From assembly GCA_018267705.1 (NCBI GenBank), contig JAFDXX010000004.1, positions 248,001-312,000 of the forward strand: a stretch of DNA of 64,000 nt. The letters are read 5' to 3'. This DNA comes from Bacteroidota bacterium (GTDB lineage Bacteria > Bacteroidota > Bacteroidia > Chitinophagales > Chitinophagaceae). Positions 6,101 to 64,000 of the stretch are shown one piece after another; the stretch's first letter is position 1, and every line of letters begins with the position of its first letter. The notes under the pieces are model-generated. The model searched no databases and was not told the DNA's origin. It was given only the letters and a program-made list of their open reading frames with translations. The position numbers and the translations under genes were made by a program.

Positions 6101-9100
6101 GCGGGCAACTATATTTTGATTTAGGAAGTGTTAGTGAAGATATTTTAAAAGATGGAAAACGATTTTACGAAAACGGATTAACCACACCTACATCTCCGGC
6201 AGCAGTTGATAGCACCAGTACTTGGGGAACCGTTCCCGTAAACCCGATACAAGTTACCAATGCATTTAGTAATGATGCTAACGATAGACCTTACCAAGAT
6301 GTTGGTTTTGATGGCTTAGATAATAATGGAGAAAGAAGAAAACGTGCAGGATATTTAAATCAATTGGCAGCAACGTTTGGCACTGCATCTGCATTATATC
6401 AAAAAGCAATCAATGATCCATCTAATGATGATTATGTATGGTACAGAGATGCACAGTTTGATGCAACAGGCACAGGTATATTAGGTAGATATAAAAATTA
6501 TAACAATCCGCAAGGCAACTCTCCAGTATCCTCCACCAATTCGCAATTTGCATCGGCAGCAACTTTATATCCCGATAATGAAGATTTAAACCACGATAAT
6601 ACTTTAAATGAAACAGAAGAGTATTACGAATATCAAGTTAATTTAAAACCCGGAATGGATGTGGGCAATACAAAATATATTACCGATAAACGTGTAGTGC
6701 CTGTTACTTATGCCAACGGAACAAAAGCAAATGAAAACTGGTATTTATTTAGAATACCTATTAAAGACTATGCTCAAAAAGTAGGTCAGATCCCCGATTT
6801 TAAATCTATTCGTTTTATTAGAATGTATATGACTGGTTTTCAAGATTCTGTTATCATGCGTTTTGCATCTTTAAACTTAGTAAGAAATACATGGAGGCAA
6901 TTTACTTATGAAGTAGATACTACAGGTTCCTATACACCCATTAATACTTCTGTTACAACTTCAAATACATTAGCTGTAAATTTAGAAGAAAACAGTAGTC
7001 GTACACCGGTTAATTACGTTATCCCTCCGGGTATAGAACGTGTACAAACTTTAAGTAATAATGGTGTAAATCTTTTGCAAAATGAACAATCATTAAGCAT
7101 ACAAGTAAAAAATTTATTAACCGGAAATTCAAGGGGCGTTTTTAAAACATTACCCAATTGTGATATGCGTAATTACGGCAGGTTATCAATGTTTGTACAC
7201 GCAGAAAGTATTGTTGGACAAGTTGCTTTAAATGATAATGACTTAAATATTGTTGTACGCATAGGACAAGATTTTTTAAACAATTATTACGAAATAAAAT
7301 ATCCTTTAAAAGTAACCTTACCCGGTTATTATTCTACCTCGCAAGCAGAAACTGTTTGGCCAACTCTGAATAATCTTGATTTTAATTTACAAGATTTAAT
7401 AACCGTAAAAACTCAACGTAATGCAACAACAGGGGCATCGGTAACTAATATTTTCCGACAAATAATTAATGGAAAAACCATAAGTGTATTAGGCAATCCT
7501 AACCTTGGTGCTGTAACAGGAATTTTAGTTGCAGTACAAAATGCAAAAAATAGTATTACAACACCACTGAATGCAGAAGTATGGATAGATGAATTAAGAT
7601 TAAGTGAAATTAATGAACAAGGAGCTTATGCTGCAACCGGTAAAGTTGAAGTACAATTGGCAGACTTAGGTAGAATAAGCGTTTCGGCAAATACCTATAC
7701 ACAAGGTTGGGGAAGTTTAGAATCTCATATTAACGATAGAGCGAGAGATAATATGATGCAATTTGATGCTGCTGCAAGTATTGATGCCGGAAGATTATTA
7801 CCTAAGGCAGCCAGACTTTCTATACCCGTATATGCCAGTTATAATCGTATAGTGCATACACCACAATACGATCCGTTTGATAATGACATTTTATATAAAA
7901 CAAAATTAAATTTAGCAAAGTCTTTAGCCGAAAGAGATTCTATTAAAAATGCAGCTATTGATCAAACAACAATAGCTACCATTAATTTTACCAATGTACG
8001 CGTAATGCCCAAAGGTAAAATACATATATGGAGCATTAGCAACTTTGATGTAAGTTATTCTGTAACACAAATCTTACAAAGCAATCCAACTGTATTAAGT
8101 AATAATGTTAATAAATGGCGGTTAGGCTTAGGTTATACATTTAATAAACAATCAAAATTTACAGAGCCGTTAAAAAAAGTAATTAAAGGAAGAAGTCAGT
8201 GGTTAAGTTTGGTACGCGATTTTAATTTTAATTTAATGCCTTCTCTATTAAGTTTCAGAAGTGATATAAACAGGCAGTTTGCTCAATTTATTCCACGTAT
8301 TGTAAATACAGATTTAACAGTAACCAAAGTACAAAGAGTAGATACAACGTATGATAAATATTTTACATTTGATAGATTTTACAATCTTAGATGGGATTTA
8401 TCTCGCTCTATAAACATAGATTTTTCTGCAATAGATAATGCAAGAGTAGATGAGCCTTATGGTTTATTAAATACGCAAGTAAAAAAAGATACTGTAAGAA
8501 ATAATTTTTGGAAAGGAGGAAGAAACACTTTATACACACAACGTGCAACAGCAAGCTACACCTTCCCATTAAATAAATTTCCTTTAACAGATTGGATAAC
8601 TGCACGTTATACTTACGGCACTTCTTATAATTGGATTGGTGCAAGTTTATTGGCAAGAACATTAGGTAATACTTTAGAAAACACACAAGAAAATAGTATT
8701 AACGGACAATTTGATTTTTCAAGATTGTATATGAAAAGTAAATGGCTTCGTTCAGTTAATAATGCTTCTTTCCAAAATAATACAAAAAATACTAATATAA
8801 AAAATAATAACAAACCAATTGTTCAACCAACGGGTATAACCATTAAACCAAGAAACGAAGTAATTAGAGATGATAAAGGCAATTTACTAAAAGGAAAAGC
8901 AAAAAGACAAGCATTAGCAAAGTGGCGGCAATTAAAACGAGATGATAGACTTGCTAAAAAATTGCAACAGCAAAATATGCCTTATGAAATGAGTGAAGTT
9001 GCAAAAACCGCAGGCACTTTAATTACAATGGTAAAACATGTTACGGTTGATTATAGTGAAAATTACCATAGCCGTGTGCCGGGCTATTTAGATAGCACAC

Positions 9101-58736: not shown

Positions 58737-58859
58737 ATGGCAGGTTCAAAATGCAAACCTGGGTATCGGGAGATATTTTGCCCTTACATTGTAAGGGGAG
58801 GAAAAAAAATCTACCCGAGGAAGTCCAAGTACTTTCACTTTTTCATAAAGATTAAGTAA
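58737..58859 (+). CDS. 40-residue basic, Cys- and aromatic-rich small protein with strong SD
   Basis: The ATG at 58737 is preceded by AAGGAGG at 58721-58727 (9-nt spacing), one of two full SD sequences I found ahead of genes here. The product is very basic: it begins MAGSKCKPGYREIFCPYI, has many Lys/Arg and Tyr/Phe, and ends FHFFIKIK. Two Cys residues are nine apart. A terminator follows the stop by 15 nt, so it is a complete transcription unit. The fold could suit an RNA- or ribosome-binding peptide, but I recognise no family. GC-richer codons than neighbours and an internal 7-bp hairpin leave open a structured RNA instead. Confidence 0.6.
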   Translation: MAGSKCKPGYREIFCPYIVRGGKKIYPRKSKYFHFFIKIK

Positions 58860-60305: not shown

Positions 60306-60329
60306 TAAATACTACATAGTGAGTATTTA
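60306..60329. promoter_or_regulatory. Inverted repeat TAAATACT-N8-AGTATTTA upstream of the sensor kinase
   Basis: Perfect 8-bp arms (60306-60313 and 60322-60329) flank an 8-nt spacer. The core fits ATACY-N8-RGTAT, the pattern also seen at 63174-63191 and 63401-63418. It is a candidate binding site for the downstream response regulator (autoregulation). Confidence 0.55.
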
Positions 60330-60403
60330 TTTGCCTTCAATATTTTCTTTTCTTTAGAAAAAATTATAGCGTTTTATTTTTTAAAACATTTAAAACTGTG
60401 AGA

Positions 60404-62533
60404 ATGATTTTTCTAAAGAAACTTATTTGTTGTTTATTGGTGTTGTTGCATTTTTTTGTAGCAGCACAATCGCAAGAAACAGAGTTGCAAAAAAAAGATG
60501 CTATTGATAAAATAAAAACAAATCTTTTAAAAGCAAAACAATTATATACCACCAATAGAATACAGGGAGAATTGGTAGCAACAGAAGTATACAAATCAGC
60601 TTCTAAATATTCTGAAACTGTAAAAGAATTTATTGATGCACATAATTTACTCGGATTATTTAATCAGTATAATGATAAAATTACCGAAGCAAAAAAGTTT
60701 TATAATGATGGATTAGAATTGGCAATAAAACACAATGAAAAAAGTTTGGCCGAAAAAATAAAAACCAATATTGGTAATTTATTAATGCATACAGGCAGGT
60801 ATGAAGAATGTATTCAATATTCATTAACCTTAATAGAAACATTAAACGATAATTTACAAGCAAAAGCAAATACACTTGCCAATATTGCTATTTGTTATGC
60901 ATATTTAAAAAATGATAACTCTGCAATTTTTTTTCAGCAAAATGCCAATAAATTATTTGAACAATTAAAAGATAAAAGAGGAATAAGCACAGGATACAAT
61001 TTATTAGGAAGCAGTTATGTGCATTTAAAACAATACGATTCTGCTAATAAATATCTGTATCAATCTCTGCAATATAAAACCGAAATGAAAGATACAAGTG
61101 GTATTATAAACGCAACTTTAAATATTGCAAGTAATTATTATGCTCAAAATAAAATTGAAGAGGCAAAAAGTGTTTATAAAAACCTTGAAAAAATTATTGT
61201 TGCATACAATAGCAATATACACTTGACTTCATTTTATAACAATATTGCAAATGTTTATGATAAATTAAAAATGTTTGATAGTGCAATTATTTACAATAAA
61301 CTTTCTTTTAAACAAGTACAAAAAACACAACATTTATATCTGCAAGCCAATGCAGCCTTAAATCTTAGCAAAGCTTATCATAAAATAAATAATATAGACT
61401 CTGCACTTTATTACAGAATAATTGGAGATAAACTTACCGATTCATTAAACGCAATTGAAAAAAATAAAACATTGTTAGAGTTAAGCACTAAATACGAAAC
61501 AGAAGCCAAACAACTAAAAATAAATTTATTACTGAAAGAAGATTCAATAAAAAAACTACAATTAAATAATCAAACCGTTCAACTAAAAAATCAGCAATTA
61601 AGCTTAGCACAACAAAATTTTGAAATTGCCGAGGCTCAATTAAAAATTGCAGATGATAGTTTACTTCTTATCAAAAAAAATAAAGATATCACCACACAAA
61701 AACTGCAAACTTTAAAAAAAGAACAAGAAATTAATAATCTTTCTAACGAGAAAAAATTGAATGAATTAGCATTAAGTAAAAAGAATAATTTATTAATTGC
61801 AATATCATTACTTCTTTTATTATTAATGTTAGCCGGATATTTATTTTACAAACAAAAGAAGCAACAGCAAGAAAATAAAATGCAGCAACAACTACATATA
61901 CAACAAGAAAAGTCTATGATGGCAGTATTAGAAGCAGAAGAAAAAGAACGTAAAAGAATTGCTGCTGAATTGCATGATGGTATTGGGCAAAGTATGACGG
62001 CAGCTTGGATGAATATGCAATCTGCATTAAACAGTAAAGAGAATGATGAACAAAAAAATATCATCTTTAAAAATGCTTTAACCTTAATAGATGAAAGTTG
62101 TAAAGAAATAAGAGTTGTAAGTCATAATATGATGCCCAATGTGTTATTACAAAAAGGTTTGGTAAATGCTGTAAAAGATTTTTTAACTCAAATAAATAAA
62201 CAAGGTTTAAATATTAATATAGAAGCAGAAGGCTTGCATAAATCAATTCCGCCACATGTTGAGTCTGTATTGTATCGTGTTATTCAAGAAGCCGTTAATA
62301 ATGTTGTTAAACATGCAAATGCTACCGAACTTTTTATAACACTTTATAATGATGCAGATGGTATTGATGTAATGATTGAAGACAATGGCGTTGGGTTTGA
62401 CAAAACAAAAATTAAAAACAACGGCATTGGTTTGCAAAATATAAAAAGCAGAATTGAATTTTTAAAAGGAAATGTAGAGTGGGATACAGCTTTATATAAC
62501 GGAACAGTTTTATCTATTCATGTACCATTATAA
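60404..62533 (+). CDS. TPR sensor histidine kinase (HisKA_3 / NarX-LiaS type)
   Basis: The ATG at 60404 gives 709 aa (a GTG two codons upstream is also in frame). A signal peptide (MIFLKKLICCLLVLLHFFVAA) is followed by periplasmic tetratricopeptide-like repeats over about residues 40-350 and a coiled coil (about 370-460). One transmembrane helix (LLIAISLLLLLLMLAGYLF) comes next. The cytoplasmic part has the HisKA_3 box ERKRIAAELHDGIGQ with His524 and an HATPase_c domain (NNVVKHANA, EDNGVGFD, NNGIGLQNIKSR). It should phosphorylate the regulator encoded 2 nt downstream. The sensed signal is unknown. Confidence 0.92.
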   Translation: MIFLKKLICCLLVLLHFFVAAQSQETELQKKDAIDKIKTNLLKAKQLYTTNRIQGELVATEVYKSASKYSETVKEFIDAHNLLGLFNQYNDKITEAKKFYNDGLELAIKHNEKSLAEKIKTNIGNLLMHTGRYEECIQYSLTLIETLNDNLQAKANTLANIAICYAYLKNDNSAIFFQQNANKLFEQLKDKRGISTGYNLLGSSYVHLKQYDSANKYLYQSLQYKTEMKDTSGIINATLNIASNYYAQNKIEEAKSVYKNLEKIIVAYNSNIHLTSFYNNIANVYDKLKMFDSAIIYNKLSFKQVQKTQHLYLQANAALNLSKAYHKINNIDSALYYRIIGDKLTDSLNAIEKNKTLLELSTKYETEAKQLKINLLLKEDSIKKLQLNNQTVQLKNQQLSLAQQNFEIAEAQLKIADDSLLLIKKNKDITTQKLQTLKKEQEINNLSNEKKLNELALSKKNNLLIAISLLLLLLMLAGYLFYKQKKQQQENKMQQQLHIQQEKSMMAVLEAEEKERKRIAAELHDGIGQSMTAAWMNMQSALNSKENDEQKNIIFKNALTLIDESCKEIRVVSHNMMPNVLLQKGLVNAVKDFLTQINKQGLNINIEAEGLHKSIPPHVESVLYRVIQEAVNNVVKHANATELFITLYNDADGIDVMIEDNGVGFDKTKIKNNGIGLQNIKSRIEFLKGNVEWDTALYNGTVLSIHVPL

Positions 62534-62535
62534 TT

Positions 62536-63168
62536 ATGATAAAAATTGCATTAGTAGATGATCATCAAATTATAATTGATGGTTTAAAATCTTTATTAAA
62601 TCAATCATCAACTATTCAACTTGTTGCAACTGCCAACAGCGGCAAAGAAATTTTGCAAAAAATAAATGAAACAGTAATTGATATTTTAATTACAGACATT
62701 AGCATGCCTGAAATGAATGGGTTAGAATTAGCTAAAAAAGTAAAACAATTATTTCCCGAAATAAAAATTATTGCATTAAGTATGAATGCTGATGGCTCTA
62801 CAATTAATGCTATGGTTAATGATGCAGATATTACAGGATACCTTTTAAAACAAACAGGTGCCAATGAATTAATAACAGCTATTGAAAAAGTTTATAAAGG
62901 AGGCATTTATTTTCAAACCGATATTTTAAATGCTTTAGAACAGCAAACAAAAATTAAACAGCAACAAGTATCGGCTAATTTATCTAACAGAGAAATACAA
63001 ATAATTGCTTTGTTAGAGAAAGATTTTTCTAATAAACAAATTGCTACCGAACTAAATATTTCTGTAAGAACAGTTGAAACACACCGAAAAAATATTTTAA
63101 GAAAAACCAATACCAACAATTTACTCTCTTTAATAAAATGGGCTTACGCCAATAAAGTGCTACAATAA
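62536..63168 (+). CDS. NarL/FixJ-family response regulator
   Basis: The 210-aa regulator has a receiver domain with acidic pair Asp8/Asp9, phospho-acceptor Asp54 in LITDISMPEMNG and the later Lys in YLLKQTG. It is followed by a LuxR-type HTH (NLSNREIQIIALLEKDFSNKQIATELNISVRTVETHRKNIL, here spread over about residues 147-190). It starts 2 nt after the kinase stop, so it is its partner. NarL-type regulators bind inverted heptamers as dimers. Candidate sites of that geometry occur at 60306, 63174 and 63401. Confidence 0.94.
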   Translation: MIKIALVDDHQIIIDGLKSLLNQSSTIQLVATANSGKEILQKINETVIDILITDISMPEMNGLELAKKVKQLFPEIKIIALSMNADGSTINAMVNDADITGYLLKQTGANELITAIEKVYKGGIYFQTDILNALEQQTKIKQQQVSANLSNREIQIIALLEKDFSNKQIATELNISVRTVETHRKNILRKTNTNNLLSLIKWAYANKVLQ

Positions 63169-63173
63169 ATTTT

Positions 63174-63191
63174 ATACCCTATTAACGGTAT
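63174..63191. promoter_or_regulatory. Inverted repeat ATACC-N8-GGTAT (site 1), overlapping a -33 element
   Basis: The arms are 63174-63178 and 63187-63191, starting 5 nt after the regulator stop. The right arm runs into TTG (63191-63193), which with TAGCATTG at 63214-63221 (20-nt spacer) makes a near-consensus promoter for the HTH ORF. Read as a NarL-like 7-2-7 arrangement it is TACCCTA-TT-AACGGTA. Confidence 0.65.
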
Positions 63192-63235
63192 TGTAGTAGT
63201 ACACACAACTTTTTAGCATTGTAAAAAATTATGCA

Positions 63236-63400
63236 ATGCAGTTTCAACCAAACAATATTTTAACTAAAAAGCACCAAGAAGTATATAAGCTAATGCAAGC
63301 AGGCTATACATCTCAGCAAATTGCCCATGCAATTAAAATGTCTGAACTAACGGTAAAAATTATTATAAGAAAAATAAAAAAAGCATTAGAAAAAAATTAA
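63236..63400 (+). CDS. Stand-alone LuxR/GerE-type HTH protein (54 aa)
   Basis: An ATG ORF of 54 codons encodes little more than a LuxR-type helix-turn-helix: LTKKHQEVYKLMQAGYTSQQIAHAIKMSELTV, then a basic RKIKKALEKN tail. The same landmarks occur in the C-terminal domain of the regulator encoded 67 nt upstream (S-x-x-QIA, S-x-x-TV, R-K-I). There is no receiver domain. It could be a constitutive GerE-like DNA-binding protein, a modulator that competes with the regulator, or a remnant. The ORF is bounded on both sides by ATACC-N8-GGTAT repeats. Confidence 0.7.
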   Translation: MQFQPNNILTKKHQEVYKLMQAGYTSQQIAHAIKMSELTVKIIIRKIKKALEKN

Positions 63401-63418
63401 ATACCATATCAACGGTAT
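63401..63418. promoter_or_regulatory. Inverted repeat ATACC-N8-GGTAT (site 2), overlapping a -33 element
   Basis: The arms are 63401-63405 and 63414-63418, immediately after the HTH stop codon. Over 21 bp (TACC to TGTA) it differs from site 1 at two positions. TTG at 63418-63420 and TTTG at 63444-63447 (19 nt before the 8-mer that ends in it) give the same promoter geometry as site 1. The lipoprotein ATG is 66 nt downstream. Confidence 0.65.
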
Positions 63419-63483
63419 TGTAAAAAATATTTTTTACAAACAATTTGCATCAATAAATATTTCATCAATAAAACCTTAACTGT

Positions 63484-64000
63484 ATGAAAAAAATAATTTA
63501 CATTTTAATGTGTGTTACAAGTGTAGTTGCTTGTAAAAAAAATGATTCTTCCATAGGTACTACATCAACTACTTCTGGTAATCTTATTTTTTATATTGAT
63601 AGTGCCAAAATTTATTCAACAGATTTGTCGGGCAATAACAGAAAATTAGTTGTTGGTTTAGATACTACTAATCCTAATTCTTATATAAGTAATTGGGTTA
63701 CTACTACTGCCGATGCTGGTAAAATTTATTTTCGTCATCACATTAGTGGCACAAGCCCTTCAATTAAACAATACGTTGTAAATAGCGATGGTACAGGCCT
63801 TGTATTAATTAAAAATATGGCTACACCTAATTATGAATATGGCGTTACAAAATTAACTACCGATGGAAAACTTACGTTCTATCAAAACCAATGGAGTTCT
63901 CCGGGAACATATACAAACACTTTACAAAGTTTAAGTTTAGATGGAAGCACACAAACCACACTTGGTACTATACCCGGCACATTCACGCATCTTATTTGGG
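63484..64000 (+). CDS. Lipoprotein, possible beta-propeller (3' truncated by window edge)
   Basis: The ATG at 63484 opens MKKIIYILMCVTSVVACKK, a lipoprotein signal with the lipobox Cys at residue 17. The mature part, read to the window end, is Thr/Ser-rich with repeated strand patterns like LIFYIDSAKIYSTDLSGNN, IKQYVVNSDGTGLVLI and LQSLSLDGSTQTTLG. The (x)S-x-DG-x pattern suggests TolB/WD40-like propeller blades, as in DUF5050-type proteins. Its promoter region carries site 2 of the inverted repeat, so it is a likely target of the upstream two-component system. Confidence 0.8.
   Translation, partial: MKKIIYILMCVTSVVACKKNDSSIGTTSTTSGNLIFYIDSAKIYSTDLSGNNRKLVVGLDTTNPNSYISNWVTTTADAGKIYFRHHISGTSPSIKQYVVNSDGTGLVLIKNMATPNYEYGVTKLTTDGKLTFYQNQWSSPGTYTNTLQSLSLDGSTQTTLGTIPGTFTHLIW

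Follow-up and report, generated by a model that had tools for sequence, protein, structure and literature searches.

Does the two-component system at the 3' end of a 64,000-nucleotide stretch of Chitinophagaceae DNA (the whole stretch that was analysed, hereafter the window) control its own neighbourhood through the inverted repeats that surround it? At this end, a TPR-containing histidine kinase gene is followed by a receiver-GerE response regulator gene, a 54-residue GerE-only gene (mini-helix-turn-helix, mini-HTH), and the first part of a gene for a lipoprotein. The sequence-only reading, an earlier reading of the letters of the window, had taken three ATACY-N8-RGTAT repeats as the mark of one self-contained regulon. 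The likely answer from our analysis is that the phosphorylated regulator binds as a dimer to the two downstream repeats, both copies of [AC]TACCNTATCAACGGTAT, and activates the promoters of the mini-HTH and lipoprotein genes, with the repeat in front of the kinase gene probably standing outside this set. The features concerned are as follows.

60309 to 60326, plus strand: inverted repeat before the kinase gene (site 60309), reading ATACTACATAGTGAGTAT; exact pattern match, probably no operator of the adjacent regulator.
60398 to 62533, plus strand: sensor histidine kinase with TPR repeats, HisKA_3, and HATPase_c, 711 amino acids (aa); open reading frame (ORF) and Pfam.
62536 to 63168, plus strand: NarL/LuxR-type response regulator with Response_reg and GerE, 210 aa; ORF, Pfam, and nearest solved relatives (VraR, RcsB, and NarL).
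63174 to 63191, plus strand: predicted operator 2, ATACCCTATTAACGGTAT, 5 nt past the regulator stop codon; pattern match, conservation, resampling, and spacing.
63214 to 63222, plus strand: predicted -7 region of the mini-HTH promoter, TAGCATTGT; TTGY lies 28 nt past the operator, as in orthologous loci.
63236 to 63400, plus strand: mini-HTH gene encoding 54 aa, a GerE domain that lacks the last helix; Pfam and conservation in locus L171.
63401 to 63418, plus strand: predicted operator 3, ATACCATATCAACGGTAT, which starts immediately past the mini-HTH stop codon; pattern, conservation, resampling, and spacing.
63441 to 63448, plus strand: predicted -7 region of the lipoprotein promoter, CAATTTGC; TTGC lies 27 nt past the operator.
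63484 to 64000, plus strand: exported lipoprotein gene running beyond the window end, 324 aa in L016 and L170, predicted beta-propeller; ORF, homologue domain, and a weak model.

The window contained exactly three matches to ATACY-N8-RGTAT (60309-60326, 63174-63191, and 63401-63418), compared with a mean of 0.19 in dinucleotide-shuffled sequences, and none of 100 shuffles reached three, in agreement with the count first reported. The identity of two sites at 19 of 21 bp, with GTATTG in both, was also reproduced; what had been called sites 1 and 2 are the second and third of that list, 63174 and 63401. Site 60309 differs from this pair in being followed by TTATTTG, so that the TTG is not immediate. 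The genome-wide motif search that had been suggested as a check gave a divided outcome. In the 2.63-Mb genome the loose pattern had 23 matches versus 8 for a reversed-pattern control, and since 11 of the 23 lay outside any ORF of at least 60 codons, this pattern by itself does not single out the locus. As a description of one genome-wide regulon it was rejected, because several systems are mixed among its enriched matches. In contrast, the refined pattern TACCNTATCAACGGTAT, taken from the downstream pair, matched only sites 63174 and 63401 in the whole genome at up to one mismatch; a second mismatch added four matches, all within ORFs of 501-745 codons. Judged by their letters, the three repeats are real but are not a single set, and sites 63174 and 63401 have a specific operator of their own.

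This operator was found directly 3' of the orthologous regulator gene in the window, L171 (two sites), L173, L174, L175, L180, and L286, and is thus common to the window and five other related lineages (L171, L173, L174, L175/L180, and L286). Nineteen loci had been fetched from named genomes with the kinase as the query. TACC-N8-GGTA lay within 150 bp of the regulator stop codon in 6 of 15 ortholog loci, whereas 4000 resamplings averaged 0.0365 and never exceeded 1; this count left out L170 as a near copy, L172 and L176 because no regulator was visible after their kinase genes, and the distant L187 and L188. Among 30 further orthologues (59 to 52% identity to the L173 regulator; the resampling control covers the 15 loci), the pattern occurred in five, of which L291 and L292 are the window system in two genomes and L286 (G093) adds a genuine case that keeps the -7 spacing. 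The L286 site, G093:C1:20533, had already been returned, as L203, by a pattern search blind to the regulator. In L171, the order of regulator, site, mini-HTH, site, and exported protein matches that of the window, and the second site equals operator 3 over all 18 bases. DNA similarity between the window and L171 starts at 60539 and stops at 63418, where operator 3 ends, and the genes beyond differ; thus, the operator is kept and different genes follow it. When 45 regulators were placed in a tree, the seven rows with a convincing site fell into one clade of 18 (support 98/99); L289, L291, L292, L295, and L299 were omitted as repeats, save L295 (G028), which merited inclusion and has no site. 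Because the two sites are unique in the genome and conserved behind orthologous regulators, the prediction of a local, private regulon has good support.

The predicted operator has a constant architecture. TACC, GG, and TAT were invariant in all nine sites, each of which had the form TACCNNN-NN-NNNGGTA, i.e. inverted heptamers in a 7-2-7 arrangement with half-sites mostly reading TACCNTA and TACCGTT. TTGY, the end of the -7 box, lay 26-28 nt beyond the operator in every case; TAnnTTGY fitted five of the nine sites and TAnnTTTG none. With the Y of TTGY placed at -5, the dyads fall at -42.5 to -44.5, a position inferred from this spacing. Coupling to a sigma-A promoter was tried as a description of the window operator and rejected, as the conserved sites mostly have no TTG and none has TAnnTTTG. 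In the Pfam search, the response regulator matched Response_reg (85.9 bits) and GerE (65.1 bits), and the kinase matched HisKA_3 (42.7 bits) and HATPase_c (43.2 bits), all above cut-off, with 2 nt between the kinase end and the regulator; besides TPR repeats, the search found no sensor domain in the kinase, NarX-type sensor included. With its receiver-GerE regulator, adjacent HisKA_3 kinase, and inverted 7-2-7 heptamers, the pair is classed by its predicted domains and sites as a NarL/LuxR-type two-component system. The earlier proposals of a NarL-family regulator acting through a 7-2-7 operator beside the -33 region, and of a self-contained set in which two operators are aimed at the mini-HTH and lipoprotein genes, are both upheld as predictions by lineage conservation and genome uniqueness.

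The likely targets, as predicted from the sequence, are the 54-residue GerE-only protein and the exported protein. The mini-HTH matched GerE with 29.4 bits (cut-off 23.5) over profile positions 2-43 of 57, without the last GerE helix. Since 24 of 50 aligned residues are identical to the L171 counterpart, pN is 0.35 versus a pS of 0.69, and the other two forward frames of this stretch hold many stops, we regard the mini-HTH as a real gene. The L171 counterpart itself scored below cut-off for both GerE (16.2 bits) and HTH_7 (22.5 bits), and a search for distant homologues among 5.8 billion proteins returned one cluster, the mini-HTH itself. The exported proteins behind the operators pair up, with 27.6% identity over 903 columns for L171/L174 and 39.8% over 498 columns for L173/L286; that of L173 has a C-terminal type IX sorting domain above cut-off, and that of L171 a PQQ_2 match barely above cut-off. 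The window lipoprotein is probably an exported beta-propeller protein. Its homologue P0003 has a PD40 repeat, and the Foldseek list for its structure model consists mostly of beta-propellers; because the model, built from three sequences, has a mean predicted local distance difference test score of 57.8 and the TM-scores reach only 0.40, the propeller fold is a hint. In L175 and L180 there is no gene between the operator and a convergent gene, and a hairpin with a T-run follows, so that the operator product there may be a small RNA. In these two loci (L175:12326-12450 and L180:12359-12480), a conserved stretch without a reading frame follows the operator and ends in a terminator-like hairpin, AAAAGGCC...GGCCTTTT. 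In L173, ATACCCTTCCCGGGGTAT (8011-8028) precedes the gene of a small exported protein, which lies two genes upstream of the Ferruginibacter kinase.

In the mechanism that we propose, the TPR-containing kinase would sense a signal and phosphorylate the regulator. A regulator dimer would then cover the heptamers TACCNTA and TACCGTT, 7-2-7, centred near -43, and contact RNA polymerase at a promoter with a weak or missing -33 element. Expression would yield the mini-HTH and the exported, probably beta-propeller, protein, and the mini-HTH may feed back on its own or another circuit.

Several observations weigh against this mechanism or narrow it. At up to three mismatches, the refined pattern had 35 matches in its own genome versus 64 in the reversed control, so no wider regulon is visible. 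A scan of 394 genomes with the refined operator plus TTGC gave 38 matches versus 12 in the control, mostly background, and among 30 loci fetched from it the true operator occurred only at L192/L193 (the window system) and L203 (G093). Exact sites within 300 bp of regulators numbered seven among 69 homology-picked loci, all in the genus of the window and some of them repeats of one place. The matches at L294 and L301 sit inside ORFs, and orthologues outside the site-bearing clade (about 49-59% identity) have no operator. Within the clade, the Sediminibacterium-type branch, with 11 of the 18 regulators, shows no site behind the gene; there the operator was lost or never present, and the regulator therefore acts elsewhere or not in this way. 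Most of these rows have a convergent gene close 3' of the regulator. The TTG at -33, which had been taken as an operator-linked element, is not conserved, being present in two of the nine sites, both in the window. Moreover, the inner heptamer bases do not fit the NarL consensus TACYYMT, and conservation alone does not distinguish activation from repression.

Four rival explanations were weighed. Binding of all three repeats, that before the kinase included, as one autoregulated set would accord with three matches within 3.2 kb and with the sites in front of a kinase or regulator gene in two further systems of this genome (L062:4064; L067:3951 and 7004). However, site 60309 has neither the conserved inner bases CAACGG nor TTGY 24-29 nt beyond it, and TAC[CT]N8[AG]GTA was absent within 300 bp upstream of all 10 related kinase genes, the nearest counterpart being a one-mismatch match about 180 bp upstream of the L173 kinase. 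The L171 contig starts within the kinase gene, which places the kinase upstream region outside that comparison. Site 60309 is identical in L170 (G002), and this says little because the DNA of the region is 97.6% identical there. On these grounds, site 60309 is probably not an operator of the adjacent regulator, and control of the kinase-regulator operon by its own regulator is unsupported, as is the earlier claim of a third operator; we regard the one-set explanation as unlikely. Chance occurrence in AT-rich DNA, for which the 23 loose genome matches, about half of them inside ORFs, could be cited, is contradicted by the conservation behind an orthologous gene in six lineages and by the resampling control. 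This refutes chance for the two downstream sites, not for site 60309, and leaves it a very improbable explanation.

The protein that binds the downstream sites might instead be another regulator of the same fold, either the mini-HTH or another GerE regulator of the genome. The genome has twelve GerE matches, the mini-HTH is itself a GerE domain, and several other NarL-type pairs have ATACY-N8-RGTAT sites of their own. Nevertheless, the operator is kept in L173, L174, L175, L180, and L286, which have no mini-HTH between regulator and site, it tracks the regulator clade, and within the genome it occurs only here; the last GerE helix is missing from the mini-HTH. A different binder accordingly seems to us about as improbable as the one-set explanation. 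Slightly less probable still is that the adjacent regulator represses, or acts in both directions, at the two promoters. NarL both represses and activates, according to part of PMC4549865, and the TTG at -33 of the window sites could support basal transcription, but seven of the nine sites have no such TTG, and the dyad near -43 is at the position found at the NarL-activated napF and yeaR promoters. Activation by the adjacent regulator at the two downstream sites remains the explanation that we favour.

Beyond this locus, the loose pattern was found 948 times in 36 family genomes (control, 486) and 437 times in 23 genomes from other families in the same order (control, 374). Enrichment varied by genome and was absent in, for example, G007, G010, G014, G015, and G021. 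A promoter-coupled form, ATACYN8RGTATTGN{18,20}TANNTTTG, matched 37 times, in 30 of 147 genomes, with a control count of 0, and this establishes it as a family-wide element. Loci were fetched for 30 of the 37 matches; eight had a GerE gene, compared with 1 of 28 comparison loci from the genome of the window. Six of the eight GerE genes were on the same strand, ending 4 to 156 bp upstream of the site (four independent cases, as each of two pairs is one neighbourhood), one ended about 800 bp before it, and one was on the other strand. GerE matches numbered 12-23 per genome in seven surveyed genomes. At the site in front of the L067 regulator, the outer bases were kept in G002 and the inner bases differed. 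A Chitinophagaceae-wide NarL-type operator code is offered tentatively and may well prove too broad. In this reading, each GerE regulator would place a private TACC-N8-GGTA promoter right after its own gene, irrespective of which gene has come to lie there, and similar operators would also drive copies of a strongly conserved, multi-copy small RNA; at this locus, such promoters would run a free-standing mini-HTH with feedback on the circuit and an exported beta-propeller protein.

Further instances were noted during this survey. At L017:2921-2959 (G000:C18:222420-222458), two adjacent ATACY-N8-RGTAT sites precede another gene of the same genome as the window, and one of them abuts a perfect TTG-N19-TATTTTTG promoter. 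In L126, L138, L153, and L075, the operator lies behind a VraR-like regulator gene; L126 and L138 have about 140 nt without an obvious gene between the operator and a convergent gene, possibly a second small RNA.

An apparently undescribed small RNA was also encountered. Its core, TTTTTCATAGGATATTGGATTTTAAA (up to 3 mismatches), occurred in 248 of 394 family genomes and in none of the reversed control, with up to 10 copies per genome and an adjacent terminator hairpin showing compensatory changes. The loci are L110-L132 (nine loci), L228, and L252-L281, and the copy in the genome of the window lies at G000:C3:111712-111737 (minus strand). Nine of the 30 promoter-coupled loci are copies of this RNA, and 8 of 31 copies picked by the core (own copy added) carry TAC[CT]-N8-[AG]GTA at a fixed upstream distance; the own-genome copy does not. 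An Rfam search of eight loci gave no match at the small RNA, a sub-threshold Thr_leader match lying elsewhere in L132, and a literature search by its letters returned unrelated papers only. Elsewhere in the window, a 40-codon ORF (58737-58859) beside a ribonucleotide-reductase-like gene has AAAGGAGGT, a consensus Shine-Dalgarno sequence, in front of it. Such a sequence is unusual for Bacteroidota.

Among the result entries (not full texts) of our literature search, we found neither a NarL-type regulator binding site described for Bacteroidota or Chitinophagaceae nor this small RNA. A private operator with a known neighbour, natural variants in six lineages, and two copies in the genome make a clean test case, one that bears on how NarL-type regulators function together with the phylum's unusual -33/-7 promoters. 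The wider pattern would allow target prediction for many uncharacterised GerE regulators.

The closest parallel among known systems is NarL of E. coli, which, as stated in part of PMC4549865, prefers inverted heptamers 2 bp apart, with TACCCCTAAAGGGGTA as an engineered high-affinity site and 7-2-7 sites at -40 to -49 in napF and -38 to -47 in yeaR; the heptamer consensus is given as TACYYMT in a portion of PMC4886647. Like NarL, the window regulator has a receiver and a GerE domain, and its predicted operator has outermost TACC, heptamers 2 bp apart, and a dyad near -42 to -45. Because of the 7-2-7 heptamers and a dyad near -43, as at napF and yeaR, the operator geometry is that of NarL, while the inner bases differ from TACYYMT. 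Unlike the NarL system, the window kinase has TPR repeats, with no NarX-type sensor found and no nitrate link, and the operator has only two sites in the genome. By sequence, the closest solved relative of the regulator is VraR (E-value 6.3e-32), of the VraR/LiaR group, whereas the operator geometry resembles that of NarL. Finally, the sigma-type SM5 promoters of Flavobacterium psychrophilum have, as described in part of PMC9723704, a TAnnTTGY box at -12 to -5, and the sites studied here are alike in carrying TTGY behind the operator throughout and the full box in five cases, with the spacing read from the sequence alone.

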